Shown here: positions 1,352 through 17,084 of the stretch, in pieces
Layout of the letters: every line of letters begins with the position of its first letter
Numbering within the stretch: position 1 is the stretch's first letter
Virus record (IMG/VR): IMGVR_UViG_3300028024_000178
Location: 1-25,731 of that record
Strand: one strand, 5' to 3'
From: a virus
DNA: 25,731 nt
Program-made: the position numbers and the translations under genes
Notes under the pieces: model-generated
The model's database searches: none
What the model saw: only the letters and a program-made list of their open reading frames with translations
Told to the model about the DNA's origin: nothing

Positions 1352-2806
1352 TTGTTCCAGACGATAGCCCGCACCATTCCGCGCGACCCGGATTTCCCGG
1401 AGCGCTGCTGGTGGATCGACGTGCGTACCAGATTGCTCGACGGCTCCTTCTATGATGGGCTCAGCTACGAGTTCCATCAGGAGACGCGCGGCGAGGGCGG
1501 CCAATATGTGCCGATCGCCGAGCGGCGGCCGAGCGTGCGTACCGGTCTCCTCCGCACGGTGGTCGACGACAGCGTGTCGCTGCTGTTCGACGAGGATCAT
1601 TGGCCCGCGCTCGAGACCGCCGAGGCCGATATCGAGGCGCGCGGCCAGCTCGCGGCACTCGCCCGGCAGATGCGGCTGAACGAGATCATGATGGCGGCGG
1701 CGACCATCGGCGCCGTCGGCTCGGTCTGCCTGCATCTGCGCATTCTCGGCGGCGCCCGAGGGTTGCGGCCCTTCGTCAAGGTGATGAACACCATGTACCT
1801 GACGCCGGAATGGGACCCGGCGGCGCCCGACACGCTGATCAAGGTGACCGAATGCTACAAGGTCACCGGCGACGAGCTCCGGCAGCGCGGCTATACGGTC
1901 GATGACGGCGCGCTCGGCGAGCGTTTCTGGTTCGAGCGCGTCTGGGACGATATGGCGGAAACCTGGTATCTGCCTTGGAAGCTGGGCGAGACCGATCCTG
2001 CGCGTATCCGCCAGGTCGACGATGCGCCCGGCCGCACGGTACGGCACGAACTGGGCTTCGTGCCGATGGTCTGGATCAAGGATCTGCCCGGCTGCGACGA
2101 GATCGACGGCACCTCGACCCTGACCATGGAGGCGGTCGAGACGATCATTCAGATCGACTATCTGCTGAGCCAATGCGGGCGCGGCCTCAAATACAGCCAG
2201 GACCCGCTGCTGCTGATCAAGGAGCCGGCCGGCGGCGACGGGCCGTTCATCCGCTCGGCCTCGAATGCGATCACGGTCGATGCCCAGGGCGATGCGCGGC
2301 TGCTGGAGATCAACGGCTCGGCCGCCTCGGCGGTGATCGACTATTGCAAGGCGCTGCGCGAGATCGCGCTCGAATCGCTCCATGGCAATCGCGCCAACCC
2401 GGACCGGCTGGCGGCCGCCACGTCCGGCCGAGCCATGGAAATGATGAATCTGGCGCTGATCTGGCTTGCCGGACGGAAGAGAATTACCTACGGCGACGGC
2501 GGGCTTCTGGTGCTTCTGGAGATGATCGCGAGGGCGAGCGAGAAGCTGCCGCTCTCGCTCGCGGGCGGCACAGCCCGGACGATCCGGCTGACCGGCCCGC
2601 TGACGCTGCGCTGGCCGGCTTGGTACGCGCCCACGGCACAGGACCGGGTGCAGATGGCGACCGCTCTCCAGACCCACATTGCCAGCGGCACGCTTTCGGT
2701 CGAGACCGCGGTCAAGACCATCGCATCCGACTATGCGATCGAGGATGTGCCGGCCGAGCTGGCGGCGATCCGCTCAGATTCCCAAAACCAGAAGGCGAGT
2801 GGCTGA
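1352..2806 (+). CDS. Phage portal protein (SPP1 gp6-like), TTG start
   Basis: This is the dodecameric ring at the capsid vertex that docks the terminase and later the neck. The 484-residue protein follows terminase and precedes a scaffold-like gene, the usual place for a portal. It has the charged, Trp/Tyr-containing central region and the long helical C-terminal half (SGRAMEMMNLALIWLAGRK) typical of SPP1 gp6-type portals. The frame is open from 1172 inside terminase, but a strong Shine-Dalgarno CCGAGGAGG at 1334-1342 sits 9 bases before an in-frame TTG at 1352, giving a protein starting MFQTIARTIPRDPDF. I therefore take TTG as the start. The stop shares its last base with the ATG of the next gene (TGATG), which suggests translational coupling. 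Identification rests on position and overall character more than on one signature motif. Confidence 0.85.
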   Translation: MFQTIARTIPRDPDFPERCWWIDVRTRLLDGSFYDGLSYEFHQETRGEGGQYVPIAERRPSVRTGLLRTVVDDSVSLLFDEDHWPALETAEADIEARGQLAALARQMRLNEIMMAAATIGAVGSVCLHLRILGGARGLRPFVKVMNTMYLTPEWDPAAPDTLIKVTECYKVTGDELRQRGYTVDDGALGERFWFERVWDDMAETWYLPWKLGETDPARIRQVDDAPGRTVRHELGFVPMVWIKDLPGCDEIDGTSTLTMEAVETIIQIDYLLSQCGRGLKYSQDPLLLIKEPAGGDGPFIRSASNAITVDAQGDARLLEINGSAASAVIDYCKALREIALESLHGNRANPDRLAAATSGRAMEMMNLALIWLAGRKRITYGDGGLLVLLEMIARASEKLPLSLAGGTARTIRLTGPLTLRWPAWYAPTAQDRVQMATALQTHIASGTLSVETAVKTIASDYAIEDVPAELAAIRSDSQNQKASG

Positions 2807-3303
2807 TGCCCGAGATGATCGAGCCCCAGGCGGGCGGCGAGGACGAGACGCGCAAGAGCTTCCCCTATGAGTATGTGAAGGAGCTTCGGGAGGAGAATGG
2901 CCGCTACCGGCGGCAGAAGACCGAGGCGGAGCGCGAGCGCGACGAGCTGCGCACGACCGGCGAGAAACGGATCGCCACCGCGTTGAAGCAGGCCGACGAG
3001 CGCATCATCCGTGCCGAGCTCAAGGCCGAGGCGCTCAAGGCCGGCATCAACGATCCGGCCGATCTGAAGCTGGTCGATATCTCCGGCCTCAAGCTCGGCC
3101 AGGCCGGCGAGCTCGAAGGGGCGGCGGACCTCATCGCCCAGCTCAGGCAATCCAAGCCGTATCTGTTCAAGGCCGCCGCCGGCACCAGCGGCACCGGCAC
3201 CCCGCCACGCCCCGGCAGCCGCCAGGCCCGCAACGCCCGCGACATGTCGTCGAGCGAGTTCCGGGCGGCACTGGCGAAGCAGGGGATTAAGCTGCCGCGA
3301 TAG
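2806..3303 (+). CDS. Scaffold-like head assembly protein
   Basis: This 165-residue protein probably guides coat assembly and is lost on maturation. Residues about 20-85 are dense in K, R, E and D with a heptad-like pattern (YVKELREENGRYRRQKTEAERERDELR), as expected for the coiled coil of a scaffolding protein. A middle region reads DLKLVDISGLKLG, followed by a Gly/Pro/Arg linker and a short basic C-terminal tail (SEFRAALAKQGIKLPR) like the coat-binding tail of known scaffolds. The start ATG overlaps the portal stop by one base. In scaffold-containing phages the coat gene normally follows directly; here a toxin-like cassette separates the two. It could instead be a minor head protein, but length, charge and position fit scaffold best. 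Confidence 0.75.
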   Translation: MPEMIEPQAGGEDETRKSFPYEYVKELREENGRYRRQKTEAERERDELRTTGEKRIATALKQADERIIRAELKAEALKAGINDPADLKLVDISGLKLGQAGELEGAADLIAQLRQSKPYLFKAAAGTSGTGTPPRPGSRQARNARDMSSSEFRAALAKQGIKLPR

Positions 3304-3334: not shown

Positions 3335-4369
3335 ATGAATTTCAATGCCGACGAGCCGCGGGATGAGCGCGGCCGTTGGACGGGCGGTGTCCAGGCCGTT
3401 GCGGGAAATTGGCGCGACAAGACGCTCGTCAATAACAGCCGCTCGGGGCGCGCTGCCGCGTTGGTCATGAATGCCCTTCTCTCGCTTCCTGCACGGTTCC
3501 GACGCCAGCCGGGTTGGGCTGAGCCGGAAATGGCAGAGCGATTGGGTCGCTTGATCGATCGCTGGGACGCTGCCTCGGGGTTGGACGACAAAGCGTTCCA
3601 AGCCGTCTTTCTTGGAAACGATACAAATCCGGACGTTACCCACGATCTGCGAACCGCCGCTCAAGGTGCGCTGCGGGCGCGAACAGCCGGGGAGATGGCG
3701 GAGGCGGCAGATCATCTTGCTGCCGCCATGCGGATGATCGGCGCAGACCGGTGGTCGGACTTTTTGAGGAATATGGAGGCCAAGGCTCGGGTAGCTGACG
3801 ACGGCGCGGACCAGTCGACAGTTAAGCAGACGGAGCACGTGCTCGGTGATGATCCCATGACCGATGTCGATATTATGGGAAATCCCCTTAGCTTCCGAAG
3901 TCAGGCCGCCTCCGATGTGGCTTTGGGTGCGGGGGCTCTGGCGCTTGGAGCAGCTGGCGGTGGAGTGGCGGTCTTTTTGGGACGAGCGGCTATCTTGGGG
4001 TTGGGAAGCTTCTCCACCGCGGAGATCGCGATTGTTAGCGAAACCCAATCCATCCTGGAGGCCCCGGAATTCGCACAGCTTGCAGCCGCACACGAAGCCG
4101 GAGACTCGTTGGTTGTGCATATCGGCGGTCGCTTGATTCAATATGAGCCGAACCTTCCAGCGTCCGGCATGAGCTTGTTCGGAGAAAATGGATTTCTACT
4201 TGGCCCGGAAGCATTCGCATCGACGTCCGAGCTCAAGCAGACAATCCTCCATGAGTTGTACCGATTGACTTTTAGCAGGGCGGCTGGTGGTGTGTCCGGC
4301 GAGTTGGCTACCCAGGAGACGCATGCGGCGGCGAGCTTTGCTGCGCGCGCGGCAGGATTGATCCGATGA
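3335..4369 (+). CDS. Phage-borne polymorphic-toxin-like protein (candidate toxin)
   Basis: The 344-residue product opens with ADEPRDERGRWTGG (residues 5-18), the PRDxxGRW/F tag common at the junctions of phage MuF, protease and portal proteins that carry extra cargo. Residues 20-180 are a polar helical region, 191-235 a Gly/Ala-rich hydrophobic stretch with membrane-insertion character, and 255-344 a compact C-terminal domain. That domain carries GENGFLLG (283-290), HELYR (306-310) and QETHAAASFAARA (327-339). The HExxR plus a downstream Glu resembles a degraded zinc-peptidase signature, but HExxH itself is absent. The order tag, hydrophobic linker, small C-terminal domain, followed by a small overlapping gene, is that of a polymorphic toxin with its immunity gene. 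It has a good ribosome site (GGGAGG) and lies between scaffold and coat. Base composition looks lower in GC than in flanking genes (30 of 60 counted at 3841-3900). The enzymatic activity is unknown. Confidence 0.6.
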   Translation: MNFNADEPRDERGRWTGGVQAVAGNWRDKTLVNNSRSGRAAALVMNALLSLPARFRRQPGWAEPEMAERLGRLIDRWDAASGLDDKAFQAVFLGNDTNPDVTHDLRTAAQGALRARTAGEMAEAADHLAAAMRMIGADRWSDFLRNMEAKARVADDGADQSTVKQTEHVLGDDPMTDVDIMGNPLSFRSQAASDVALGAGALALGAAGGGVAVFLGRAAILGLGSFSTAEIAIVSETQSILEAPEFAQLAAAHEAGDSLVVHIGGRLIQYEPNLPASGMSLFGENGFLLGPEAFASTSELKQTILHELYRLTFSRAAGGVSGELATQETHAAASFAARAAGLIR

Positions 4370-4575
4370 AAGAACCCGATATCACCGCAAGATGGATTGC
4401 TGCCGGGAAGGCCTTGGCTGCCGACCCCACGACCAAGGTCCCGTGTCCCGTATGCGGGGAGGCGGATTTGACCGTGAAGGATATTCCGATCCAAGGGTCG
4501 AATAAATTCGAACGCGTGATGGAATGCCCAAATTGTCATGCACGAAATGTGCTGCTGATGACGGCGCCACAGTGA
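4366..4575 (+). CDS. Small zinc-ribbon protein, candidate immunity partner
   Basis: This 69-residue protein has two CPxC knuckles, CPVC at residues 27-30 and CPNC at 54-57, spaced as in a zinc ribbon. Between them is a short hydrophobic and acidic stretch ending in FERVMECPNC. The start ATG overlaps the stop of the toxin-like gene (ATGA), so the two are almost certainly co-translated. My recollection is that small proteins of this form, with a helical N-terminus (ITARWIAAGKAL) and a CPVCG...CPNC ribbon, occur next to polymorphic toxin genes; that cannot be verified here. The immunity role is therefore inferred from coupling and size. It could also be a small nucleic-acid-binding protein. It is complete and has no signal peptide or membrane segment, so a cytosolic role is expected. 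Confidence 0.6.
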   Translation: MKEPDITARWIAAGKALAADPTTKVPCPVCGEADLTVKDIPIQGSNKFERVMECPNCHARNVLLMTAPQ

Positions 4576-4808: not shown

Positions 4809-6134
4809 ATGGGCATCGACAATTTTCCGCCGTCGCTGCAGCCGATCATTCAGCAGAATTTCCTCGAGCGCGCGTTCGAGGAGGCGCTGCATTCGCAGCT
4901 GGGCTATCGCGACGTGGCCGACCGCGAGCTCTTCCCACAGAAGATCGGCGAGACGCTGACCAAGACCAGGCGCGGCCTCAAGGCGCCGGCGACCAGCCCG
5001 CTCAATCCCGCGACCAACACCAATCTCGATAACGGCCTGACGCCGACCACCTGGACGGTCGAGCAGTACAGCGTCACGCTCAACCTCTATGCCGATACGA
5101 TCGACCTCAACACGGTCACAAGCCGGGTCGGCATCGCCGAGCAATTCATCCAGAACGCCATCGTCAACGGCGTCCAGGCGGCGCAGACGCTCGATCGGCT
5201 GGCGCGCAACCAGCTCTTCACCTCCTACTTCTCGGGCAATACCCGCGTCCGCACCACCCTCGGCTCGGCCGGGGCGGTGGTCGCGGTCGACGATATCCGC
5301 GGCTTCCAGACGGCGCCGGTCAACGGCGTCATGGCGCCGATCAGCGGCACCAACACGCTGACCGTCACGGTTGGCGCCAATGCCTATACGCTGGTGGCCG
5401 CCACGCCCGACGGCACCAACATCTCGACCGCACCCAACGGCGTCTCGGGCACGCTCACCTTCTCGGGCAATGTCTCGGTCTCGGACGGCACCGCCGGCAA
5501 CACGATCCAGGCCGCCAATGCCTGCGTCATCCTACGCCCGAACGGCCGGGCCAATACCGCCCAGCTCGTCGCCACCGACGTGCTGGCGATGGCGCCGCTG
5601 CTCGACGCCGTGGCGGCACTCCGGGCCAACAATGTGCCGGATATCGACGGCGCCTATAATTGCTATCTCGACCCGATCTCGGGCCGCCAGCTCTTCGCCG
5701 ACCCGGATTTCAAGCTGCTGTTCCAGGGCGCCACGAGTTCGAACGACGTGTTCCGCAAGGGCATGGTCAACGACTTCCTGGGGCTGCGCTTCATGCCGAC
5801 GACCGAGGCCTTCCTGCAGCCGCATCCGACCGTCGCCGGCCTCAAGATCCGGCGCCCGATCATCTGCGGCCAGGGTGCGCTGATCGAGGGCGATTTCGAA
5901 GGCATGGGCAAGAGCGACGGCGCCACGCCGGCGGACAGCGTCATCGACATCATCGACAGCATCGCCATGGTGACACGCGAGCCGCTCGACCGGCTGCAGC
6001 AGATCATCGCCCAATCCTGGTACTGGATCGGCGGCTTCACCGCACCGACCGACATCACCACCAACGCCACAATCATCCCGACGGCGAGCAATGCCGCCTT
6101 CAAGCGCGCCGTGATGCTGGAGCATGTCGGCTAA
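4809..6134 (+). CDS. Major capsid protein, HK97 fold, P22/N4-gp56-like
   Basis: This is the coat protein forming the icosahedral shell. The 441-residue product begins with a short helical arm, then an extended region that includes TNTNLDNGLTPT (70-81) and a long helix with YADTIDLNTVTSRVGIAEQF. These are features of the P22/N4-gp56 branch of HK97-fold coats. Residues about 170-250 are a Thr/Asn/Val-rich beta segment that looks like an inserted domain, comparable in position to the I-domain of P22-type coats. The C-terminal half contains NNVPDIDGAYNCYLDPISG (274-292), a stretch I associate with this family. There is no N-terminal delta domain, in keeping with a separate scaffold gene upstream. 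The start ATG follows a GAAAGG ribosome site. Confidence 0.88.
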   Translation: MGIDNFPPSLQPIIQQNFLERAFEEALHSQLGYRDVADRELFPQKIGETLTKTRRGLKAPATSPLNPATNTNLDNGLTPTTWTVEQYSVTLNLYADTIDLNTVTSRVGIAEQFIQNAIVNGVQAAQTLDRLARNQLFTSYFSGNTRVRTTLGSAGAVVAVDDIRGFQTAPVNGVMAPISGTNTLTVTVGANAYTLVAATPDGTNISTAPNGVSGTLTFSGNVSVSDGTAGNTIQAANACVILRPNGRANTAQLVATDVLAMAPLLDAVAALRANNVPDIDGAYNCYLDPISGRQLFADPDFKLLFQGATSSNDVFRKGMVNDFLGLRFMPTTEAFLQPHPTVAGLKIRRPIICGQGALIEGDFEGMGKSDGATPADSVIDIIDSIAMVTREPLDRLQQIIAQSWYWIGGFTAPTDITTNATIIPTASNAAFKRAVMLEHVG

Positions 6135-6456: not shown

Positions 6457-6840
6457 ATGTCCTTCACCGATGCCCAGAAGACGGATATCCGCCGCTTCTG
6501 CGGCTATCCCGTGTTCGGCCAGAGCCCGAACCAGTTCGTCGATTACCGCTTCTTCCAGGCGTACGGAAATCTCGAATACAAGCTGAACAATTTGCTGCCG
6601 GCCGAGGAAGCCGTGATCGAGACCGTCTATCTGGCGCAGCTCTATGCGCTGGAGGCCGCGATCCCGTCCAGCGGCGGCAATCTCGACACCCAATCGGCAG
6701 CGGTCTGGACCCGCAATCCGCAGGAGCCGCGCGATCGCGCGGCTCTTTTCGACAGCTGGCGCCGGCGGCTCTGCGCCTTTCTCGGCGTCCCGCCGGGCGA
6801 GGGGCTGCCGCCATGCGGCATGACCCCGCTGATCGTCTGA
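6457..6840 (+). CDS. Neck / head-tail adaptor protein
   Basis: The 127-residue, mostly helical protein begins MSFTDAQKTDIRRFCGYP and contains YLAQLYALEAAIPSSGGNLDT and AVWTRNPQEPRDRAALFDSWRRRLCAFLG. This helical pattern, with a conserved W-T-R-N-P motif and a C-terminal R-R-R-L-C-x-F-L-G, matches my recollection of a family found between coat and tail genes in alphaproteobacterial prophages. It probably forms the first ring below the portal. It begins 7 bases after the previous gene with a GAGG ribosome site. Assignment as adaptor, not a head decoration protein, comes from helical content and gene order. Confidence 0.7.
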   Translation: MSFTDAQKTDIRRFCGYPVFGQSPNQFVDYRFFQAYGNLEYKLNNLLPAEEAVIETVYLAQLYALEAAIPSSGGNLDTQSAAVWTRNPQEPRDRAALFDSWRRRLCAFLGVPPGEGLPPCGMTPLIV

Positions 6841-6861
6841 CCCCATAGCAAAGGCACCGAC

Positions 6862-7269
6862 ATGAATATCAGCCAGGTGGCCAGCACGGCCATGCTCAAT
6901 GCCCTGTTGGCGCTCGCCAATAGCGGCACGCTCAAGCTCTACACCGGTCCGAAGCCGACCAATCCCGACACGGCGCTCGGCTCCCAGACGCTGCTCGCCA
7001 CCTTCGCCTTCGCGGCCACGGCCTTCGGCAGCCCGAGCTTGGGTTCGGGTGTCGAGGGCGCCAATGCCAGCTTCACCGCTTCGACGGTAACGGCGGTCGC
7101 GACCGGTACCGCCGTCTTCGCCCGCATCACTAAGAGCGACGGCACCACGGTGATCGCCGATCTCACCATCGGCACCAGCGGTGCCGACATCAATCTCAAC
7201 AGCACCGCCATCACCAGCGGCGGCAACGTCACGCTCACCTCGCTGGCTTGGAACAACCCGGTCGATTGA
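6862..7269 (+). CDS. Phage beta-rich virion protein of unknown role
   Basis: This 135-residue protein starts with a short helix (ISQVASTAMLNALLALANSG) and then becomes beta-rich: GTLKLYTGPKPTNPDTALG, LLATFAFA, GTAVFARITKSDGTTVIADL and INLNSTAITSGGNVTLTSLAW. The combination of a 'GTLKLYTG' strand, a 'GTAxFxRI' strand and the final 'G.VTLTSL' strand is one I know from uncharacterised proteins in phage head-tail modules. No enzyme motif is present. It is likely a structural protein of the capsid surface or neck. Ribosome site AAAGG precedes the ATG. Confidence 0.65.
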   Translation: MNISQVASTAMLNALLALANSGTLKLYTGPKPTNPDTALGSQTLLATFAFAATAFGSPSLGSGVEGANASFTASTVTAVATGTAVFARITKSDGTTVIADLTIGTSGADINLNSTAITSGGNVTLTSLAWNNPVD

Positions 7270-7293
7270 GCCGTCGGAGCAAGGAGGCGAGAG

Positions 7294-7710
7294 ATGGATC
7301 AAGCGCTGAGGCTCCACGAAGACGGGGCCGCGGTGAGCTATCGGCAGGACGAGCCCGGCTGGATCGTGGTGCGGCTGAGCTACGATCTGCCCGGCGCGCA
7401 TACGCGGCTGCATAGCCATCGTTTCGATCATTGGATGCGCTGCATCACCGGCTTGGCCTGGGTCGATATCGAGGGCGATGCAAGAATCCTGCGGCCGGGC
7501 GACGAATATCTGGTTGAGGCGCATCGGCGGCACCGGGTGCTGCCGCTGGCCGCAGATACGGTGCTCGATTGCCGCCATGAGATCCGGCGCGAGAATGGGT
7601 TGCACGATCCTGCCGCCTTCACCGCCGATGGCATTCCGCTCGAATGGTTGCGCGGGTTGACCGAGGATTGGGGCCCCGGGCTCGAACAGGTCGGAAGGGT
7701 CATGACATGA
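7294..7710 (+). CDS. Cupin-fold protein in the head-tail module
   Basis: The 138-residue protein has a single cupin-like barrel. Residues 36-50 hold a histidine cluster, HTRLHSHRFDHW, followed by GLAWVDIEGDARILRPGDEYLVEAHRRHRV. That gives the G...PGDxxxxxxxxxH arrangement of a cupin second motif, with H77 and H80. The histidines could bind a metal, so an enzymatic or sugar-binding role is possible. It is also possible that the fold serves as a structural or decoration module. The ribosome site AAGGAGG at 7281-7287 is strong. The stop overlaps the start of the next gene (ATGA at 7707), suggesting the two products are coupled. I do not know its substrate. Confidence 0.75.
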   Translation: MDQALRLHEDGAAVSYRQDEPGWIVVRLSYDLPGAHTRLHSHRFDHWMRCITGLAWVDIEGDARILRPGDEYLVEAHRRHRVLPLAADTVLDCRHEIRRENGLHDPAAFTADGIPLEWLRGLTEDWGPGLEQVGRVMT

Positions 7711-8684
7711 GCCGCGCCGATTTCATCTCGATGACAGCGAGCGCCATCGCCGGCACAGGCGGCAACGGCGCCGTCACCTTGGTGCAGGTCACCGCGCCGG
7801 TGAATGTGCCGACCTTCAGCCAAGCCTTCGGTTCGAGCGCGAGGATGGTCGATTATACGATCATCGACGGCGTGGCCGGAAAATGGGAGAAGGGCTTCGG
7901 CTCGGTCGCCGGCAATGTTCTTACACGCTCGAGCATCCACGAGACCTATGACGGGGCGACCTACCTCTCCGGTAACCCATCGGCGCTGGCTTTCGGCTCG
8001 ACGCCGACGGTGGGAAATATCGTCATCCGCCTAGCCCCGACCAGCGATTTCGCGCTGCCCGTGCCGTCGGCGATCCAGCGGACGGTCGGTAGCGACTCTT
8101 TCCTCGGATATCAGCTTTCGGGCGCTATCGCGACGGACAATAACGGCAGCAACGCGGCGCTCTCGACCGGCATCGAATATTATTTCCCTTATCTGAACCT
8201 CATTCGGGGGAAGATCGATGCGGTGCTGATCGGGATCGGATCGGTCGGTGCGGCCAACGCCGGTGCCAAGCTCGGGATCTATGAGGTCGGCCCCGACGGG
8301 CTGCCCGGCCCTTGCATCACGCTCGCCAATGCGCTGCCGCTGACGGCGACGGGACCGGCCGTCGATGCCACGCCGGCGAGCTGGGGCGTCAACGCCGGGC
8401 CGATACGGTTGACGCCGGGCTGGTTCTACATCGGCGCGATGGTCAATGACGCCACGGCACAGCTTCAGATGTTTCAGGGCATTTCCGGCCGCGCCCTGAT
8501 CTATCCCCCGACCGGGCGGGTCAATGGCTACGGCTTCGGCACGAGCGTCCGCAAGACCGCCCAGAACAGCTACGCGACCGGATTGCCGACCGGCGTGCCG
8601 TCCCAGACGGGCGGAACCTACGTGCTCGGCAACATGAATGACGGCCTCGGAATGCTCGCGGTCGGGTTAAGGATCAACAACTGA
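7707..8684 (+). CDS. Fibre-like / appendage protein in the neck region
   Basis: The frame is open from 7644, but the ATG at 7707 overlaps the cupin stop and has GGAAGG at 7693-7698, so it is the likely start (325 residues). The first ~115 residues contain MVDYTIIDGVAGKWEKGFGSV and NVLTRSSIHETYDG. This resembles the small beta module seen at the front of many phage fibre and appendage proteins (YTIxDG...WExGxG...LxR). The remainder is Gly/Ala/Ser/Thr-rich and beta-like, including GSDSFLGYQLSGAIATD and GGTYVLGNMNDGLGM. A DUF4376-type gene follows with a one-base overlap, as fibre genes are often followed by assembly partners. It may form neck whiskers, capsid fibres or a second receptor-binding protein. 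Confidence 0.6.
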   Translation: MSRADFISMTASAIAGTGGNGAVTLVQVTAPVNVPTFSQAFGSSARMVDYTIIDGVAGKWEKGFGSVAGNVLTRSSIHETYDGATYLSGNPSALAFGSTPTVGNIVIRLAPTSDFALPVPSAIQRTVGSDSFLGYQLSGAIATDNNGSNAALSTGIEYYFPYLNLIRGKIDAVLIGIGSVGAANAGAKLGIYEVGPDGLPGPCITLANALPLTATGPAVDATPASWGVNAGPIRLTPGWFYIGAMVNDATAQLQMFQGISGRALIYPPTGRVNGYGFGTSVRKTAQNSYATGLPTGVPSQTGGTYVLGNMNDGLGMLAVGLRINN

Positions 8685-9232
8685 TGAGCGACCCACTCGT
8701 ACCGTTCCCCGTCAGATATACCGAGCAGGGATTGGGGCTGCATGCAGCAGTCGCGGCTGCCGGATTTTTGCTGCGCCAGATCGATGGAGCATGGTTCGCC
8801 TCCGATCCTTCGGTCCAACAGATTATCGACAATTACAATCCGCTGCCGGCAGTGCAGAGTGCCGCCATGATTGCGGCTCAAGCCCATTACGACGCGATCA
8901 TCGCGGCGGGCTTTTTCTACCAGGGCAAGAGCTTCCAGATCGATCCGGCATCGCAGGCGAATATGGCGGCGGCTGGTGCCATGGCGCTCGGTTCGATCAC
9001 TAATCCGGCCTCGAATCCTTGGCCTGCCGCCTTCGACTGGATCGCGGTGGATAATAGCCGGGTGCCGATGACGGCGCCGCAAACCTATGCCTTCACCTAT
9101 GCGGCGGGCGGTTATGTCAGCGCCTGCATCCTCTATCATCGCTCGCTCAAGGATCAGATCCTTGCCGCGACGAGTGCTGCCGCCGCGCAGGCGATCGATG
9201 TGACGGCCGGCTGGCCGGCCAACGGAGGGTAA
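8684..9232 (+). CDS. DUF4376-like fibre partner protein
   Basis: This 182-residue protein starts on the last base of the upstream stop codon (TGATG). The C-terminal half reads FQIDPASQANMAAAG, then PWPAAFDWIAVDNSRVPMTAPQTYAF. This is the S-Q-x-N plus W-x-x-x-DN-x-x-V-P-M-T pattern I associate with DUF4376 domains found at the end of phage fibres or in small proteins encoded beside them. The N-terminal ~90 residues are a separate helical region. A second gene with the same style lies after the main tail fibre at 23415. The function is probably fibre assembly or tip formation; direct evidence is lacking. Confidence 0.6.
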   Translation: MSDPLVPFPVRYTEQGLGLHAAVAAAGFLLRQIDGAWFASDPSVQQIIDNYNPLPAVQSAAMIAAQAHYDAIIAAGFFYQGKSFQIDPASQANMAAAGAMALGSITNPASNPWPAAFDWIAVDNSRVPMTAPQTYAFTYAAGGYVSACILYHRSLKDQILAATSAAAAQAIDVTAGWPANGG

Positions 9233-9235
9233 GCC

Positions 9236-10558
9236 ATGAGTTTCGGCGCGGTCGCGTTCGGCCTGTCGTCCTTCGGCACGGCGCCGGCAGGTGCCGCGAC
9301 GAGCGTCACAGGCTCGGGCAAGGCGGGCTCGGCGGCGCCAACGGCCGCCGGGACCGGCAATTTCAGCGCATCGATTTTCGCCGGAGGCGGATCAGCGGTT
9401 CTGCCGGTCACACGGATTCTGGGGGCAGGCCGCCTCGATGAGAGCGCCGCCGCGGCAAGTGCGGCTGGGCGAGTAACGGCGAACGGTGCCGGCCTGCTCG
9501 GCGTGACGGGGTCCGGCGTATCCATCTGTGCGCTTAGTAGGTTCGCCGGCGCGGGCAACACATCGCCGCCTGGAGTGGGCGGCGCCAGCGCTTTGATCGC
9601 CGCATCTCCCGGCGCTGCCGGCACAGGCTTGCTCGGGGAAACCGGCAGCGCCAGCCTCATCGACGCCGGACCTCGGTTCTCGGGACTCGGCAGCGCCGTT
9701 CCGCCCGGCTTCAGTGGTAACGGCTTCGTCGCGAACGGCTCTTCTTTCGTGTCGGGCAGTGGCCGGCTCGAAATTGTGGGGCGCAGCACCATGACGCTGG
9801 TCGCGACGGCAGTCCTGGGCATCGGGCAGAGTTCGGCCAGCCCTGTCGTCGGTGCCGGAAGCTTGATCGGTACTTCGAGCATGATCAATGGGACTGGATT
9901 GAGTGGCGGCGGCGGCATGAGCGGCGATCGGTTGCAGAGCCTGATCTACCGGCGCGGCTATGCCTCTCTCGCGGCCAAGGCCGGTTTGCCCTATCGCCAA
10001 TTCCGGCCGGCCGGGCCGTTCGACCCGATGAGCGGTCCGCCGCTCGGCATCCTGCCGGTCCTGTTCGGCCAGGACGACCGACTTCAATCGCCGAACCTTT
10101 ATGGCAACGCGGTGTGGCACGTCTGGATCGACGGCACGGCGACCGAGGTTGCCGATATTCTCATCGGCGATCGAACCTTCTTCATCGTCGCCCAGCAGCC
10201 GTTGCTCCCGATCCTTGCGGTGGAGGCGCCGCGCACCGTCGATGTCAGCCGGCCGTTCCATCAAACGCGAATCGGTTTCTCGCCGATCTATGGCGGTACG
10301 ATACCGGCTCTGGAGACCGTCATCATGCGCCAATGGCCGGCTTCGATCCTGCAGGGCGGCGGCGGCGACAGCGCCAACGCCGCACTGCCCGACGAGGTCA
10401 GGGCGCTGGGCTGGAGCATGCTGCTGCCTCAAGTTCCGGGCGTCGTTCTGCGCCCCTCCGATGTCGTCTCCGACGAGTTGGGGCGGCGCTACACGATTGC
10501 GTCGGCCGAGCTGACCAGTTTCGGCTGGCGATTGACGATCCACCAGGCAGAGAGCTGA
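9236..10558 (+). CDS. Head-closure protein fused to a Gly/Ala/Ser-rich repeat domain
   Basis: The 440-residue protein has two unlike parts. Residues 1-228 are low complexity, built from imperfect units around 'GxGxLxG' (GAGRL, GAGLLGVTGSG, GTGLLGETGSAS, GSGRLEIVG, GAGSLIGTSS), and probably form stacked beta turns. Residues 229-440 are a normal globular domain: RLQSLIYRRGYASLAAKAG, PNLYGNAVWHVWIDG and RTFFIVAQQPLLPILAVEAPR. I recognise this as a family of small proteins in alphaproteobacterial prophage neck modules, likely head closure. The strong ribosome site GGAGGG at 9224-9229 supports the start at 9236, and no internal start with a good site is obvious near 9920, so the fusion appears real. 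The repeat part could project from the neck as a whisker or decoration. Confidence 0.65.
   Translation: MSFGAVAFGLSSFGTAPAGAATSVTGSGKAGSAAPTAAGTGNFSASIFAGGGSAVLPVTRILGAGRLDESAAAASAAGRVTANGAGLLGVTGSGVSICALSRFAGAGNTSPPGVGGASALIAASPGAAGTGLLGETGSASLIDAGPRFSGLGSAVPPGFSGNGFVANGSSFVSGSGRLEIVGRSTMTLVATAVLGIGQSSASPVVGAGSLIGTSSMINGTGLSGGGGMSGDRLQSLIYRRGYASLAAKAGLPYRQFRPAGPFDPMSGPPLGILPVLFGQDDRLQSPNLYGNAVWHVWIDGTATEVADILIGDRTFFIVAQQPLLPILAVEAPRTVDVSRPFHQTRIGFSPIYGGTIPALETVIMRQWPASILQGGGGDSANAALPDEVRALGWSMLLPQVPGVVLRPSDVVSDELGRRYTIASAELTSFGWRLTIHQAES
9290..9915 (+). repeat. Coding imperfect repeat encoding GxGxLxG units
   Basis: Within the head-closure gene the DNA encodes a run of imperfect, roughly 25-40 residue units centred on Gly-x-Gly-Leu/Ser motifs at residues about 64, 85, 128, 149, 174, 195 and 206. 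The units are too diverged for a simple DNA tandem repeat and are best seen at protein level. Composition is dominated by G, A, S and T with periodic hydrophobic residues. Confidence 0.5.
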
Positions 10559-10561
10559 GCC

Positions 10562-11401
10562 ATGGCAGATATCTCGGATGCGCGGCAGGCACTGGCTCAA
10601 ATCATCGCCGGTCTCATCTACCCAGCCGGCGTGCCGGCCGGCACCATGCCGTCCGCAGCGGTGATCGGCGCTCCTGTCAGGATCTACGCGGGCAGTCCGG
10701 AACGTGAAGCGCTCGATGCGGATCTGGCGGCCGGCATCGTCAACATCACGGTCGAGACCGGCCAGGACGGTGTAAACACCACGCGTTTTCCGGCGGTCGA
10801 TCAGGTGATTTCGGTCGAGCCGCCGAGCCTGTCCTGGGTGGTGGCGGGCATCGGCGCCACACTCTGCGGCGCCGTTGCCACCCCGCAAAATGCCGGGCTG
10901 CTGGTCGATGGCAAGGCCTATCTCTACGCCGTGCAGCCGGCCGATACGCTCGAAACGATCGGTGCCGCGTTGGCCGCTCTCGTTGCCGTCGATCAGGCGG
11001 CCAGCGCCGAAGGCGCTACTATCGTCATGCCGAACAGCCATCGGATCGTCGGTCGGATCGGCACGGTCGGACGGACCTTGCGGGAAGTCGGGCGCGAGAT
11101 CATCACCGTGCATGTTTCGGTCTGGGCGCCCTCGCCGACATTGCGGCAGGCGGCGGCCGCCGCATTCGAGCCCAATCTGCGCGACTTGCGCCGCTTTCCC
11201 CTGCCGGACGACTCGATTGCCCAAATCTGGGCGGAGCGGAGCAATGACGAGGATCGGCTGGAGAAGGCGGCGCTCTATCGGCGCAATGCGCTTTATAAGC
11301 TCGAATATGCCAGCACGATCGCCGGCACCGCGTCGCAGATTCTGAGCTTCACGGAGAACGTCGCGGCCGGGGCGGCGCCGGCGGTGATGCTGGCGGGATG
11401 A
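10562..11401 (+). CDS. Tail terminator / completion protein with LysM-like insert
   Basis: The 279-residue protein has the N-terminal helix and mixed alpha/beta pattern of a tail terminator (ARQALAQIIAGLIYPAG; NITVETGQDGVNTTRFP). The C-terminal part, VSVWAPSPTLRQAAAAAF then LYRRNALYKLEYAST, matches a phage family I know at this position. Residues 119-158 look like a LysM module inserted in the middle: AYLYAVQPADTLETIGAALAAL, ending GATIVMP, that is Y-x-V-x-x-x-DTL...I-A...G-x-x-I-x-x-P. It lies immediately before the tail genes, where terminators that cap the tube and join it to the neck are encoded. The stop lies only 4 bases from the stop of the convergent - strand gene. Confidence 0.65.
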   Translation: MADISDARQALAQIIAGLIYPAGVPAGTMPSAAVIGAPVRIYAGSPEREALDADLAAGIVNITVETGQDGVNTTRFPAVDQVISVEPPSLSWVVAGIGATLCGAVATPQNAGLLVDGKAYLYAVQPADTLETIGAALAALVAVDQAASAEGATIVMPNSHRIVGRIGTVGRTLREVGREIITVHVSVWAPSPTLRQAAAAAFEPNLRDLRRFPLPDDSIAQIWAERSNDEDRLEKAALYRRNALYKLEYASTIAGTASQILSFTENVAAGAAPAVMLAG

Positions 11402-11405
11402 AAGT

Positions 11406-12143
11406 TTATGGAGCCAGGCATTCGGCCTCCATGGTGATGAGGTCGTAGGCCTCCAACCTGGCATCGTCGAAGGATTGCCAGTCACGGCCGGGGACGCGGC
11501 CGCTAGCGCTCAGGAAATGATCGCCGCCGCCTCCGGCGACACGCCAGGCGACATTATAGCTGACCCAGGCTTGGCCGATCGTTCGCTCGCTGACGGACGA
11601 TCGCTTGCCGGGATGGCCTACGAGCTGCTCCAGCTCCGGTATCCGCGTCGAAACGAAAGGATCCTGAGCCAGGCTGACGGTGAGAAGATCGGTCACCACC
11701 GCGTCCTGGAGCGTGCTGTCCGTGCCCGGTGGCAGCTCTTTGCATAGAGGACAGACGCAGGGATTCGGATCGACCAGGCTGCCCTCGAATTGGCCGGAAG
11801 GGCGGTAGCTGACATGGAAGGAACGGTTGTTCTTCGCGGACAGCCGGTAGATGTCGAGCCGACCAACCAGCCCCTGGCCGGGGGCATAGCTTTCCCTGGC
11901 GTAGCCGGGTTGGCCAAGCAGTGCCAACAGCCGCTGGCGATCGAGATTGTCGAGCTTCGTCTCGGCGAGGAAGCGATCCAACAGCACTTCGCGCGACCAT
12001 TGCTGCGATCGGGGATCGGCGGCGTGCCGCCAAGCGTCGGTCGTGAAATGCGATGCCTCCTGGGCGCCCGCCGGCAGGGCAAGGACTACCCCGAGCCCGA
12101 TTGCCGGAACGAGGCTTCGCAGGGCTTTGGAACTAATCGGCAT
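11406..12143 (-). CDS. Secreted protein with BamE/SmpA-like half, lysogenic-conversion candidate
   Basis: This 245-residue protein runs against the late operon. It starts with a clear signal peptide: basic SSKALR, a hydrophobic core LVPAIGLGVVLALP, and an AGA-Q cleavage site at 27/28. The mature N-terminal region reads AWRHAADPRSQQWSREVLLDRFL then LDRQRLLALLGQPG, like the helical start of BamE/SmpA-type domains (W...D...R..M..DLL...R.x.V..LLG.P). After it come beta strands IYRLSAKNNRSFHVSY. A CVCPLC cluster (C129, C131, C134) and a late cysteine follow, so disulfides or a metal site are possible. Its codons look like those of the neighbours, not low-GC. It would be expressed from its own promoter in the lysogen and act in the periplasm; an envelope-modifying role is inferred. 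Confidence 0.7.
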   Translation of the reverse strand: MPISSKALRSLVPAIGLGVVLALPAGAQEASHFTTDAWRHAADPRSQQWSREVLLDRFLAETKLDNLDRQRLLALLGQPGYARESYAPGQGLVGRLDIYRLSAKNNRSFHVSYRPSGQFEGSLVDPNPCVCPLCKELPPGTDSTLQDAVVTDLLTVSLAQDPFVSTRIPELEQLVGHPGKRSSVSERTIGQAWVSYNVAWRVAGGGGDHFLSASGRVPGRDWQSFDDARLEAYDLITMEAECLAP

Positions 12144-12210
12144 CGCGCGGACCCTATCTTGGTTTCATCGAAAGCAGAGCTATTCCACCGAACCACGAAA
12201 GAGACAAGCC

Positions 12211-12402: not shown

Positions 12403-13938
12403 ATGCCAGCCGTGATTACTCAAGCCGGCGCCTTGAACACCACGGCACTGATCGTGCCGGACGCCTATGTTCAGATCGTGCCGCCTTCGGTCAATGTCTT
12501 CAACGGGCAACCCACCAACGTCCTGGGCGTGGTCGGCACCGCCAGCTGGGGACCGGTGAACCAGCCGGCGATCGTCGGCAGCATGCAGGGCTTCGCTCAG
12601 CTCTTTGGTCCGATCCAGCCGCGCAAATATGATCTCGGCACGCAGGTTGCGACAGCCGTGCAGCAAGGGGCGGGCAATTTCCGCTGCGTACGTGTGACCG
12701 ACGGCACCGATACGGCCGCCAGTGCTGCGCTCGATACGGCCCCGGTCAACATCACCTTCGCGTCGAAATATACCGGCTCCTACGGCAATGGCGCCCAGGT
12801 GACGATCAGCCCCGGCTCGAGCTCGACCGCGGCAATGCCGACCTTCAAATTGACCGTGGCGATGCCGGGCGTGCAGGAGGTGTTCGACAATATCGGCGGC
12901 ACCGGCGCGGCACTCTGGGCGAACATGGCGAACGCCGTCAACAACGGCATCAGTGCCATCCGCGGACCGTCGGCGCTGATCGTCGCCACGGCCGGGACCG
13001 GCGCCGCCGCACCGGTGCCAGCAACCACGCCCCTTACCGGCGGCACGGACGGCGCCGGCACGATCACGGCCACGACGCTCGTCGGCCAGGATACGATCCC
13101 GCGCAAGGGAATGTTCGCCCTTCGGTCCCAAGGCGTCTCGGTCGCGTGGCTCGCCGATGCCGACGACAGCACGCAATGGGCCGGCCAGCTCGCCTTCGGG
13201 ATCTCCGAAGGCATCTATATGATCGGTACCGGCCCGGTCGGCGACACCATCGCCAACGCTATCACCGCCAAGCAGACGGCCGGTATCGACAGTCCTTGGT
13301 TCAAGTTGATGTTTGGCGACTGGATCTATTGGCAAGACAGCGTCAACAACGTGCTGCGCCTGGTCAGTCCGCAGGGTTTCGTCGGCGGCCTGCTTGGGAA
13401 TCTGTCGCCGCAGAATTCGACGCTGAACAAACAACTCTTCGGCGTGGTCGGTACGCAGCGTTCGTCCAGCCCGGCGAACGGCACCTATGCCTATGCCGAG
13501 CTGCAAAGCCTGATCGGCGCGGGGTTCGACCTGATCGCCAATCCCTCCCCGGGCGGCGCCTATTTCGGCGCGCAGGCGGGGCACAACAGCTCGAGCGACC
13601 CAGCGCGCAACACGGACGCCTATACCCGCATGACCAACTTCATCGCGGCCTCGTTGGGAGCCGCGACCGGGCGCTTCGTCGGCCAACTGCAGACACCCCA
13701 GCAACAGCTCGACGCCAAGGCGTCGCTCGACGATTTCTTTTCAGGCCTGGAAGGGCAGGGGCAGATCAGCGCGTTCAAGGTGACGCTCGACGCCAGCAAC
13801 AATCCGCAATCGCGCCAGGCGCTGGGATACGAGCAGGCCGACATCCAGGTGACCTATCTCAACGTCGTCGAGAAATTCCTGGTGAATTTCCAGGGCGGCG
13901 GCTCGGTCACCATCGCCGCTGCCGTCAATCAGAACTGA
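12403..13938 (+). CDS. Contractile tail sheath protein
   Basis: This 511-residue protein forms the contractile outer tube. The N-terminus has the sheath signature DAYVQIVPPSVNVFNGQPTN followed by VLGVVGTASWGPVNQPAIVGS and FGPIQPRKYD. The middle carries a Thr/Ala-rich beta domain. The conserved C-terminal domain begins near RNTDAYTRMTNF and includes QQQLDAKASLDDFFSGL, then QVTYLNVVEKFLVNFQGGG, the strand exchanged between sheath subunits. A ribosome site AGGAG at 12391-12395 lies 7 bases before the ATG. The tube gene follows after 27 bases. Length is in the normal range for phage sheaths. This gene defines the phage as a myovirus type. Confidence 0.95.
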   Translation: MPAVITQAGALNTTALIVPDAYVQIVPPSVNVFNGQPTNVLGVVGTASWGPVNQPAIVGSMQGFAQLFGPIQPRKYDLGTQVATAVQQGAGNFRCVRVTDGTDTAASAALDTAPVNITFASKYTGSYGNGAQVTISPGSSSTAAMPTFKLTVAMPGVQEVFDNIGGTGAALWANMANAVNNGISAIRGPSALIVATAGTGAAAPVPATTPLTGGTDGAGTITATTLVGQDTIPRKGMFALRSQGVSVAWLADADDSTQWAGQLAFGISEGIYMIGTGPVGDTIANAITAKQTAGIDSPWFKLMFGDWIYWQDSVNNVLRLVSPQGFVGGLLGNLSPQNSTLNKQLFGVVGTQRSSSPANGTYAYAELQSLIGAGFDLIANPSPGGAYFGAQAGHNSSSDPARNTDAYTRMTNFIAASLGAATGRFVGQLQTPQQQLDAKASLDDFFSGLEGQGQISAFKVTLDASNNPQSRQALGYEQADIQVTYLNVVEKFLVNFQGGGSVTIAAAVNQN

Positions 13939-14789: not shown

Positions 14790-14953
14790 GGGACGCCGAG
14801 CTTCGCGAGATCTTGTGGCTCGTCAAGCACGGCGTCCCATTCGATGTCGCCGAAGCGCTCGATCCGTTCGATCGGGCGGCCTGGAGTATCGTATTCGGAG
14901 AATTCTCAGGCCGCCGCTTCGACTATCAAGAAATGGCGTGGTGCCGGCCTTGA
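14783..14953 (+). CDS. Tail assembly chaperone, frameshifted C-terminal extension
   Basis: Reading in the -1 frame from the A7 run adds 56 residues (total about 181). The extension reads RVGDAELREILWLVKHG then VPFDVAEALDPFDRAAW and FGEFSGRRFDYQEM, ending WCRP. This is the typical C-terminal half of tail assembly chaperones: a WLVxHGVPFDVAxxLxxxxRxAW motif followed by GExxGxxFD. There is no separate start codon with a ribosome site, so it is only made by frameshifting. The final 28 bases overlap the convergent - strand gene. The conserved meaning of this frame is good evidence that the shift is functional. Confidence 0.85.
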   Translation, partial: RVGDAELREILWLVKHGVPFDVAEALDPFDRAAWSIVFGEFSGRRFDYQEMAWCRP

Positions 14954-15498
14954 GCGGCCTCTTCACGCGCTACATGAAGGTGATGAGAGATAACATCGAA
15001 AATCTTCTTCGGAGGTTGATCAAGGAATTGAGCGTGAATTTTTAAAGAGTGCTTCGAAAAATCTCCAGGAAAGATGAAACGTGCCGATATGCTGTTACGT
15101 TTGTACCGAATATTCGGATCTATTTTCAGAGATACAAAGCGAAATGTTAGCAACAGATTCTCAAACACTTCCCAATAATCGACCTCCTTGACCATGTTCC
15201 AGGGAATGGTTTGGGGGTTTTGGAACGAGCTGTAAAATCCGTCTCTGTTAATTCTGATGACGTCCCCTGAGTAACATGCTTTAGCCAAACTTGACGATAG
15301 TGCGAGCAAAGCGACCGCGCACATACAAATCATTAGAATCGTTATGAGGTCATATCCGCGTTCCTTCAGCGTCGATTGAGTAAAAAAAACAGTAATTGCA
15401 AATGTCATCGCAAAAAGAAGTGCGTAAAATGCCAAAAATTTTCGATTGATTTTTACGACCAGCTCTTCATCGACTGAACCTGCTCCTTCGGTGTCCAT
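14926..15498 (-). CDS. Low-GC membrane protein with PH-like domain, possible immunity protein
   Basis: This 190-residue protein lies antisense after the chaperone. The frame extends upstream to 15681, but ATG at 15498 with GGAG 8 bases before it is the clear start. Two membrane segments are visible, at residues about 21-40 (FLAFYALLFAMTFAITVFFT) and 51-70 (LITILMICMCAVALLALSSS). Then comes a beta-rich domain: DVIRINRDGFYSSF, TIPWNMVKEVDYWE and RFVSLKIDPNIRY. The layout (two helices then an 'I-x-x-x-G-x...x-I-P-W-x-x-I' PH-like domain) recalls the STM3941 family, a membrane group of unknown function. GC is low: 46 of 120 bases at 15061-15180, against 37 of 60 in a coat segment, a sign of recent acquisition. 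Its last residues are encoded by the antisense of the chaperone end. Confidence 0.65.
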   Translation of the reverse strand: MDTEGAGSVDEELVVKINRKFLAFYALLFAMTFAITVFFTQSTLKERGYDLITILMICMCAVALLALSSSLAKACYSGDVIRINRDGFYSSFQNPQTIPWNMVKEVDYWEVFENLLLTFRFVSLKIDPNIRYKRNSISARFIFPGDFSKHSLKIHAQFLDQPPKKIFDVISHHLHVAREEAAQGRHHAIS

Positions 15499-15668
15499 AT
15501 GAATTCTCCGAATCCCGCGGTCGCGGCGGTCTATTGGAAATAGAGGATATACAATCCTGGACTCTCCCCTACCAGAAGAATCGATACATAACAAGAACGT
15601 CTGTGACGATTGCGAGTGCCGCGACCTGGGCGGCCTGCCCCGTTCAGCCCAGTACGAGGAGCGTGACG
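15499..15668 (+). promoter_or_regulatory. Divergent intergenic region with small palindrome
   Basis: This AT-richer 170-base stretch separates two diverging genes and should hold promoters for one or both. A 13-base inverted repeat, CTATT-GGA-AATAG, lies at 15531-15543 and could be an operator. A TATACA element at 15548-15553 resembles a -10 box for rightward transcription, but no good -35 is evident. These are weak signals on their own. Confidence 0.25.
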
Positions 15669-17084
15669 ATGGCTGAAACAAATGGACCGCGCGGCGAAGA
15701 GGATAAGGGACCAGTCGGAAACGCGATCGAGAACATCGAGGAGTTCTTGAAAACCCATCCGAGCCTTTGGTTCGAGACGCCCAGGTCCGGCCTGATAGAG
15801 ACCGCCCATCACCTGCTCGCCCACCATCCCGGATTGGTCCTCAAAGCGGTGAAATTCGGTCCTAGCATGTTGCTTACGGGGGTCGGAACAGCGGTCGACG
15901 ATGTTGTCGAAGGGAAGCTCGACCCGTCAAAAAGGCTTTCCAGAGAAGAAATCGCGGAGCATGTGGCAATAAATCTCGGCACTTCCGTGGTCGCGGAGGC
16001 GCTTTTAGGTGCCGGTCTTGTGGTAGCTGCTTCGACAGTTGGACTTCCTGTGCTTGTTGGGGCTGTGGCCGCGGCTCTGATCGCTCCGACCGTTGGCGCG
16101 CTTGTCGGAGATTCAATATTTGATGATTTCGTCCGCCGCGCTCCCTCTCCTTCAGCCGCCGAGACGCCGACGTTGGAGATGAACCCGGATGCGCTGCACG
16201 ATCTTTCCATTCCAGGACCCCTATCGGGAGCCGAGCTAGATCAGTCCGCTCTGGCACCGTTTCTCGGAGAACCGCCGATATCGCAGGCCGACAATATGGG
16301 ATCGGGCATCGTCATCACGGTGTCCGGCGATGGCGCGGCGGGAGATTCCCCCGGCTTCGGCTCTCCCATGTCGAAGAGCGGGACAGGCGGCGGCTTCGGT
16401 GATGGCATGGCTGGAAGCGGCGCGAGGAGCGGTGATCAGTCGCGCCTGGCGCTCCCAAACGATGTTCCGCACGGAAGCTACGCGTTCACCCGCTTCATGC
16501 TCGATGGTCCCGATCCCGAGCCTGCATGGCTTCAGAATCTCCGCATGAACGGCTTGGACGGTGTCGACGGCTTTCCAGGCTTCGGCGACGGCAAGGCGCA
16601 GGTGCAGTTCGATGCCGTCCCCGCTCTGAAATCGCCTCGGGTGAACGGAGGCCGTCTGCTGCTCGGGCTCTCAGGTTCGGCATTTCCATCGCTGTCGAGG
16701 GGTTCTCCTGGTCCATCCGGAAGTTTCAATCTCGATCCTCTCGAGTTGCCGCGGCCGATGGCGGGCGAGCGCCTGTTCGAGAACGGGACGACGAGCTCCT
16801 TCCTCGACGCCCGGAGGGATGTCCTGCCGGATCTTTCTTTCGGGTCTGGCGAGTCGCCCGGCAGCGGCATCGCCGACCCGATTGGCATCGTCCGCATCAT
16901 CGCGGCGATCGATCAGCTCGGCGAGCGGCTGAGCGAACGGCCGGTCAACGCCTTCCTCGACGGCCGCGACGTGACCGACATCGTCAACCGCCACAATGCC
17001 CGAGGGAGCAACGGCCCGCTCGGGAGCACCAGCGCCTTCGATTCATCGGCCGGCTTCACGCCCTATGGCGCAAGGACGGAGTGA
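15669..17084 (+). CDS. Tape-measure-locus protein, short and atypical (hybrid or candidate effector)
   Basis: At the position of the tape measure is a 471-residue protein starting at ATG 15669 (ribosome site GAGGAG just upstream). The last ~65 residues, IVRIIAAIDQLGERLSERPVN then FLDGRDVTDIVNRHN and GSTSAFDSSAGF, look like the C-terminal tail of tape measures. The rest does not. Residues 1-100 are a helical, charged domain (ENIEEFLKTHPSLWFE; DDVVEGKLDPSKRLSREEIAEH). Residues 105-150 form a long Gly/Ala hydrophobic hairpin (LLGAGLVVAASTVGLPVLVG). Residues 155-400 are Gly/Ser/Pro-rich and apparently disordered (GFGSPMSKSGTGGGFGDG). Usual long coiled coils are absent. It may be a truncated tape measure whose front was replaced, or a pore-forming effector carried by the tail. 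The divergent membrane-protein gene next to it could be its immunity gene. Confidence 0.6.
   Translation: MAETNGPRGEEDKGPVGNAIENIEEFLKTHPSLWFETPRSGLIETAHHLLAHHPGLVLKAVKFGPSMLLTGVGTAVDDVVEGKLDPSKRLSREEIAEHVAINLGTSVVAEALLGAGLVVAASTVGLPVLVGAVAAALIAPTVGALVGDSIFDDFVRRAPSPSAAETPTLEMNPDALHDLSIPGPLSGAELDQSALAPFLGEPPISQADNMGSGIVITVSGDGAAGDSPGFGSPMSKSGTGGGFGDGMAGSGARSGDQSRLALPNDVPHGSYAFTRFMLDGPDPEPAWLQNLRMNGLDGVDGFPGFGDGKAQVQFDAVPALKSPRVNGGRLLLGLSGSAFPSLSRGSPGPSGSFNLDPLELPRPMAGERLFENGTTSSFLDARRDVLPDLSFGSGESPGSGIADPIGIVRIIAAIDQLGERLSERPVNAFLDGRDVTDIVNRHNARGSNGPLGSTSAFDSSAGFTPYGARTE

Follow-up and report, generated by a model that had tools for sequence, protein, structure and literature searches.

The question raised by this locus is why a toxin-like gene with a small partner gene lies among the head genes of a phage. 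The window, meaning the whole stretch of 25,731 nucleotides (25.7 kb) taken from IMG/VR record IMGVR_UViG_3300028024_000178, is a fragment of a contractile-tailed phage (myovirus) with a tail sheath gene at 12403-13938 (phrog_23, 2.4e-42). By Pfam and PHROG matches, the gene order of its head module is terminase, portal, scaffold, the insert and major capsid protein. An earlier note, made from the letters alone, had likened the insert to a polymorphic toxin gene followed by an immunity gene and had placed it between the scaffold and capsid genes. The reading frames, their lengths, their ATGA overlap and the two flanking genes were all confirmed (Table 1). ATGA overlaps are common in phages and alone are no proof of toxin-immunity pairing. 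The weight of the toxin-immunity reading therefore rests on the recurrence of the pair elsewhere.

Table 1. Positions of the insert, its flanking genes and the parts of the 344-residue protein within the window.
Feature	Position	Strand	Basis
Scaffolding protein gene, upstream flank	2806..3303	+	PF06810 (6.7e-14), phrog_194
Toxin-carrier gene, 344 aa	3335..4369	+	Open reading frame; C-terminal domain common to bacteriocin, CDI and phage proteins
N-terminal tag FNADEPRDERGRWTGG, residues 3-18, candidate capsid-targeting or processing motif	3341..3388	+	Fits consensus of tagged phage proteins
Residues 19-225, orphan linker/carrier, predicted mostly helical, with Gly/Ala hydrophobic end	3389..4009	+	No homologue; low-confidence model
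C-terminal toxin domain (putative), residues 226-344, zincin-like fold	4010..4366	+	Alignments, AlphaFold (pLDDT 90.9, pTM 0.87), fold searches
HELYR motif (H306, E307 and R310 invariant), where zincins have HExxH	4250..4264	+	Alignments
Invariant E328	4316-4318	+	Alignments
Zinc-ribbon immunity gene (putative), 69 aa, CPVC and CPNC knuckles	4366..4575	+	Open reading frame; homologues adjoin toxin domain or remnant in L001, L002, L090 and L162
Major capsid protein gene, downstream flank	4809..6134	+	phrog_1357, 1.1e-37

The head module was compared with those of 80 relatives, which were retrieved by their capsid protein. The scaffold-capsid spacer is 1509 bp in the window and typically ~40-240 bp in the relatives where the scaffold gene was located. 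Neither the toxin gene nor the zinc-ribbon gene was found at this site among the ~80 relatives, and phiKX1 of Komagataeibacter, an annotated relative that carries antirepressor and XRE regulator genes, has the empty arrangement too. The GC content of the pair is 0.60, compared with 0.69 for the scaffold gene and 0.66 for the capsid gene, and the GC3 values are 0.64/0.61 for the pair and 0.90/0.90 for scaffold/capsid. The lower GC that had been claimed for the pair thus holds against its neighbours, but it is modest and not extreme within the whole window, where 61 of 490 sliding windows are equal or lower. The empty spacer in the relatives and the lower GC and GC3 together indicate that the pair is, by sequence comparison, an insertion of foreign origin and not a core head gene. 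The toxin gene starts 31 bp past the scaffold gene on the same strand, a Shine-Dalgarno-like GGGAGG stands ahead of its start, and no promoter-like site was found between the two genes. The shared strand, the short spacing and the lack of such a site suggest late co-expression with the head genes.

The spacer is 327-857 bp long in seven relatives, and frame-by-frame reading of these gave other small genes or nothing recognisable. Six inserts of the relatives were seen to hold small lipoprotein-like or membrane-protein-like genes, or an opposite-strand reading frame of ~140 aa. From its contents, the scaffold-capsid spacer resembles a site where accessory genes insert; a few of the 80 relatives carry other small genes there, and none carries another recognisable toxin. 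Elsewhere in the window, an AT-rich island with GC down to 0.41 lies among the tail genes (14926-15681, minus strand), and its opposite-strand reading frame looks like a membrane protein (moron-like).

The 344-residue protein matched no family when searched in full against Pfam, PHROG, NCBIfam and PADLOC, the best Pfam match being DUF7711 (E 0.068). No Mu_F domain was matched in Pfam or PHROGs, and a Pyocin_S translocation domain is absent by Pfam. The PRDERGRW tag and the Gly/Ala-rich hydrophobic segment reported before are both present, the first at residues 8-15 and the second with its best 19-mer, LGAGALALGAAGGGVAVFL, at residues 197-215. No relatives of residues 19-225 were found by sequence search, and the structure model of this region is of low confidence and unusable. 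A small C-terminal domain is present as the earlier note had claimed; it starts near residue 226 and not at residue 255.

AlphaFold was used to model this domain together with four homologues, and a confident model was obtained. The model consists of two helices, a four-stranded sheet, the helix bearing HELYR and a last helix with the conserved Glu. Its matches among solved structures are almost all zincins (IrrE/PprI, selecase, aminopeptidases and deuterolysin), with IrrE/PprI as the best (Z 6.6, rmsd 3.4, 94 residues aligned), and its viral fold matches are SprT, IrrE and M48 peptidases. These scores are modest (E > 0.001 and Z < 8; Foldseek, VIA). Sequence searches of solved structures with the toxin gave nothing informative. 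The model indicates that the domain likely has a zincin-like fold. The domain is probably an intracellular enzyme. HExxH itself is absent. All intact members have HELYR or HETHR with an invariant Arg, which replaces the second zinc ligand of HExxH, and a standard zinc protease is therefore not claimed.

Four full-length copies of the domain were found, namely in the window, in an IMG/VR phage contig (L001), in Pragia fontium (L002) and in Aliterella (L003), together with a degraded copy in Budvicia (L004). In the alignment of the copies, identity to the window domain is 53-59% over ~120 residues (~53-54% for Pragia), and the invariant core comprises IQYEPNLP, NGFxLGPxAF, HExxRL and a distal Glu. 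The Pragia protein has a Pyocin_S domain (PF06958, 1e-23, residues 188-323), followed by the common domain at ~330-454. S-type pyocins carry their killing domain after the Pyocin_S translocation domain. By this position, the common domain is the predicted killing domain of the Pragia bacteriocin.

Further contexts were found in other carriers. An Enterobacterales locus for CDI, a contact-dependent killing system (L090), encodes CdiA (Fil_haemagg_2, PT-VENN, LHH nuclease) with a SUKH immunity gene, and then an orphan toxin fragment with an intact zinc-ribbon gene. In a second CDI array (L162), a decayed toxin remnant lies amid repeated CdiA-type segments, directly followed by an intact zinc-ribbon gene. 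The phage contig L001 has the toxin domain, an ATGA-overlapping zinc-ribbon gene and then an SU10-type portal gene; its reading frame seems to shift upstream of the toxin domain (1-265), at the contig end. In Aliterella, the N-terminus of the carrier is common to a neighbouring protein that ends in Ntox44. At 6572-12161 of the same locus, coiled-coil proteins are interleaved with toxins (window-type domain and Ntox44) that share one N-terminus, and this cluster is a possible cyanobacterial toxin-delivery locus. Judged by gene neighbourhood, the Pragia, CDI and Aliterella contexts are independent antibacterial or polymorphic-toxin settings. As in polymorphic toxins, one C-terminal domain is found behind a Pyocin_S domain, behind the Aliterella N-terminus and behind the tag, and also in CDI arrays. 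Neither the full protein nor the domain had a tblastn match among annotated phages or plasmids, and E. coli genomes gave no match to the Pragia pair in a search for distant DNA similarity; the toxin family is therefore rare. When viral contigs were searched with profiles of the toxin domain and of the zinc ribbon, the L001 contig alone was recovered again.

The 69-residue protein has two CxxC knuckles (C27/C30 and C54/C57), in agreement with the zinc ribbon described in the earlier note, though its matches to zinc-ribbon families are all sub-threshold. When the homologues of the toxin domain were surveyed for a following zinc-ribbon gene, one was found directly after the domain or its remnant at five of seven places: the window, L001, Pragia and both CDI arrays. 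The exceptions are Aliterella and the degraded Budvicia copy. The Pragia zinc-ribbon protein is 40% identical, and its gene is directly 3' of the toxin. Whole-genome searches gave one zinc-ribbon copy each in G001 and G385, right after the toxin or a toxin fragment, and no homologue in G002 and G003. Among 395 Enterobacterales genomes, four had matches at 1e-4, three of them toxin-linked, with E-values inflated by construction for genomes whose sequence is in the alignment. Among 398 Pseudomonadota, five further matches were found, mostly weaker; the best of them (G742) has no toxin neighbour and lies amid small reading frames. Because of such matches without a toxin neighbour, the zinc-ribbon family is, by homology search, wider than the toxin family, and the statement that the zinc ribbon occurs only beside the toxin was rejected as too strong. 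Toxin-less homologues were observed at L164 1453-1695 (minus strand), L165 1429-1704 and L166 1471-1725 (minus strand), and the one in L164 lies amid small reading frames that resemble an orphan immunity array. In both CDI arrays the toxin is broken and the zinc-ribbon gene is intact. An intact zinc ribbon beside a decayed toxin fits what is expected of immunity genes kept in CDI orphan arrays; orphan CdiA-CT/CdiI modules in CDI loci are described by Poole et al. 2011 (PMC3150448).

The same pair thus turns up independently in a bacteriocin of the Pyocin_S type, in two orphan arrays of CDI loci and in a second phage, which supports the toxin-immunity reading of the earlier note. The result that the note had named as fatal to this reading, a match of the C-terminal domain to a structural head protein together with a small gene not conserved beside it, was looked for and did not appear. 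From these gene neighbourhoods, the pair is probably an antibacterial cassette of toxin and immunity genes, of the polymorphic-toxin kind, that was acquired horizontally. The points that count against this explanation are the zinc-ribbon homologues without a detected toxin (G742, G754 and G1009), the Aliterella toxin domain without a zinc ribbon, the loss of HExxH, and the lack of any other toxin at the site in the relatives.

The tag was then considered as a possible link to the head. The exact PRDERGRW pattern was found in 64 stretches of viral contigs. In real genes its consensus is [FY][DN]xx[QE]PRDERGRWTxGG, to which the tag of the window, FNADEPRDERGRWTGG, is an intact match. Among the 49 tagged proteins are portals (phrog_2662 in 7 and phrog_12 in 6), head maturation proteases, and minor head and head-morphogenesis proteins; the set also contains effector domains (ART-PolyVal in 4, Zeta toxin in 2, topoisomerase IB in 2, Pesticin in 1 and PBECR3 in 1). 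When the consensus peptide was searched against annotated phages, the sole matches, all weak, were head/capsid maturation proteases. No open-access paper with the string PRDERGR was found. A tagged group from ten records was observed to be acidic and of low complexity. By composition, this group looks like the scaffolding proteins of another phage type, in which case the tag would sit in scaffolds too. A portal or MuF domain was located in 25 of the 45 records with a tag; in 16 of these it is within 5 kb of the tag, often within 1 kb, and in the other 9 the nearest is more than 5 kb off. This distribution suggests a motif by which head cargo is targeted or processed. In seven cases (L128/L129 counted as one), the tag recurs, either ahead of one effector or head module after another within a single protein or from one gene to the next, and such repetition in unrelated phages suggests a general cargo or processing tag.

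No other PRDERGRW-tagged protein was seen in this phage fragment or its 80 relatives. The gene for the toxin was therefore probably acquired, tag included, from a different lineage of phages, and the partner of the tag, if there is one, may be absent from this phage. The solitary tag counts against head delivery, as do the 9 of 25 tagged records in which it lies far from a portal or MuF domain. The suggestion of the earlier note that the toxin could be packaged with the head has indirect support, from the occurrence of the tag in head and effector proteins of other phages. With these points weighed, tag-mediated delivery of the toxin through the head has, on the evidence of the tag's distribution, a little under an even chance of being correct. 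A wider and more tentative proposal is that [FY][DN]xx[QE]PRDExGRWTxGG is a portable head-cargo tag across unrelated tailed phages, which would load ADP-ribosyltransferases, zeta toxin, PBECR RNase, topoisomerase IB and a bacteriocin-type toxin; in that case, phage particles would serve in general to deliver tagged antibacterial toxins, with immunity genes adjoining.

In the main rival explanation, the pair would be a cassette for lysogenic conversion (a moron) whose product is not packaged. The toxin would be released on lysis or would act within lysogens, or the pair would be a toxin-antitoxin-like module for superinfection exclusion or addiction, and the tag would be an inherited relic. The isolation of the tag in this phage and its relatives is consistent with such a relic. 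The delivery of the toxin domain by other machines elsewhere (Pyocin_S, CDI), the lower GC3, which marks recent acquisition, and the unrelated insertions in the same spacer of relatives also agree with a moron. However, the suggested late co-expression with the head genes and the intact consensus of the tag argue against it, and the moron explanation is considered possible but somewhat doubtful.

Two other explanations give the head location a more direct role. The 344-residue protein could be a structural or assembly protein of the head, or a head protease, and the zinc-ribbon gene an unrelated neighbour. The location between the scaffold and capsid genes, the zincin-like fold and the presence of the tag in portals, scaffold-like proteins and head maturation proteases would agree with this. 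However, the gene is absent at the site in ~79 close relatives with the same head genes and is therefore dispensable, no head-protein family was matched, and the domain is a putative bacteriocin killing domain, accompanied in CDI loci by the same small gene. With relatives that lack the gene and the domain found in a bacteriocin, the head-protein reading was rejected as highly improbable. The zincin-like domain could also be an injected anti-defence effector, with the zinc ribbon as a chaperone or cofactor protein. Domains with a zincin fold occur commonly in the polyvalent proteins of phages (PMC5512222), and such a role would also explain the head location. This is unlikely, as Pyocin_S and CDI are antibacterial delivery systems, and a zinc-ribbon gene kept beside dead toxins in CDI arrays fits immunity and not a chaperone.

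For the toxin-immunity cassette, the following mechanism is proposed. The shared strand, the spacing and the GGGAGG site suggest that the toxin and immunity genes would be expressed late, along with those of the head. The killing domain would be formed by the final ~119 residues of the 344-residue protein, which have the zincin-like fold and the HExxR/E motif. From the recurrence of the pair, the 69-residue protein would be the specific immunity protein that protects the producing cell. The tag may recruit the toxin to the assembling head. The toxin would be ejected with the DNA, in the way of the internal proteins of T4 or as has been proposed for MuF toxins, and the zincin-like domain would then act in the newly infected cell. 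Lysogens or earlier infected cells would be protected by the immunity gene.

Among the closest known systems are the MuF polymorphic toxins of temperate phages, for which head delivery was proposed (Jamet et al. 2017, PMC5576092). Like the window pair, MuF toxins are phage-encoded, have a C-terminal effector common to other polymorphic toxins and a small downstream immunity gene, and lie in the head/packaging module. The window protein differs in having a short N-terminal tag and an orphan helical region instead of a MuF domain, and it is therefore not itself a MuF toxin. The nearest named relatives of this myovirus infect Komagataeibacter (Alphaproteobacteria) and not Firmicutes. The S-type pyocin of Pragia fontium has a homologous killing domain with a zinc-ribbon gene directly after it, but the window protein is without the Pyocin_S translocation domain that delivers the Pragia toxin. 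Similarly, a homologous zinc-ribbon gene follows fragments of the same toxin in the two CDI loci, as in orphan CdiA-CT/CdiI modules; compared with such modules (PMC3150448), the window pair has an intact toxin and is without CdiA or a VENN region. The window pair is thus neither an S-pyocin nor a CdiA-CT, though the toxin domain is in common. Zincin-like alpha+beta domains are also known as C-terminal toxins in Tox-MPTase1-5 and others, listed with HExxH (Zhang et al. 2012, PMC3482391), whereas in the window family HExxR is invariant and the putative immunity protein is a zinc ribbon. For the tag, the suggested parallel is the capsid targeting sequence of T4, a short N-terminal peptide that loads internal proteins into the prohead (reviewed in PMC9026906). 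The PRDERGRW tag differs from it in sequence and is often internal and repeated in other phages.

The toxin-immunity family is new, as it is unnamed in any library searched (Pfam, PHROG, NCBIfam, PADLOC). The description that suits the pair best is a new family of toxin and immunity genes in a variant of the phage-head setting, where the MuF-toxin-like idea appears without a MuF domain. The finding adds a family, composed of a putative HExxR zincin-like toxin domain and a putative zinc-ribbon immunity protein, that moves among bacteriocins, CDI systems and phages. A single 1.2-kb insertion that combines a short tag, an effector and an immunity gene also offers a concrete case on which to test whether phage heads carry antibacterial toxins. 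As the toxin begins with a tag that recurs in head genes of unrelated phages, it may travel inside the virion as a weapon. Should the tag load cargo, its sequence would help to find packaged effectors among metagenomic phages.
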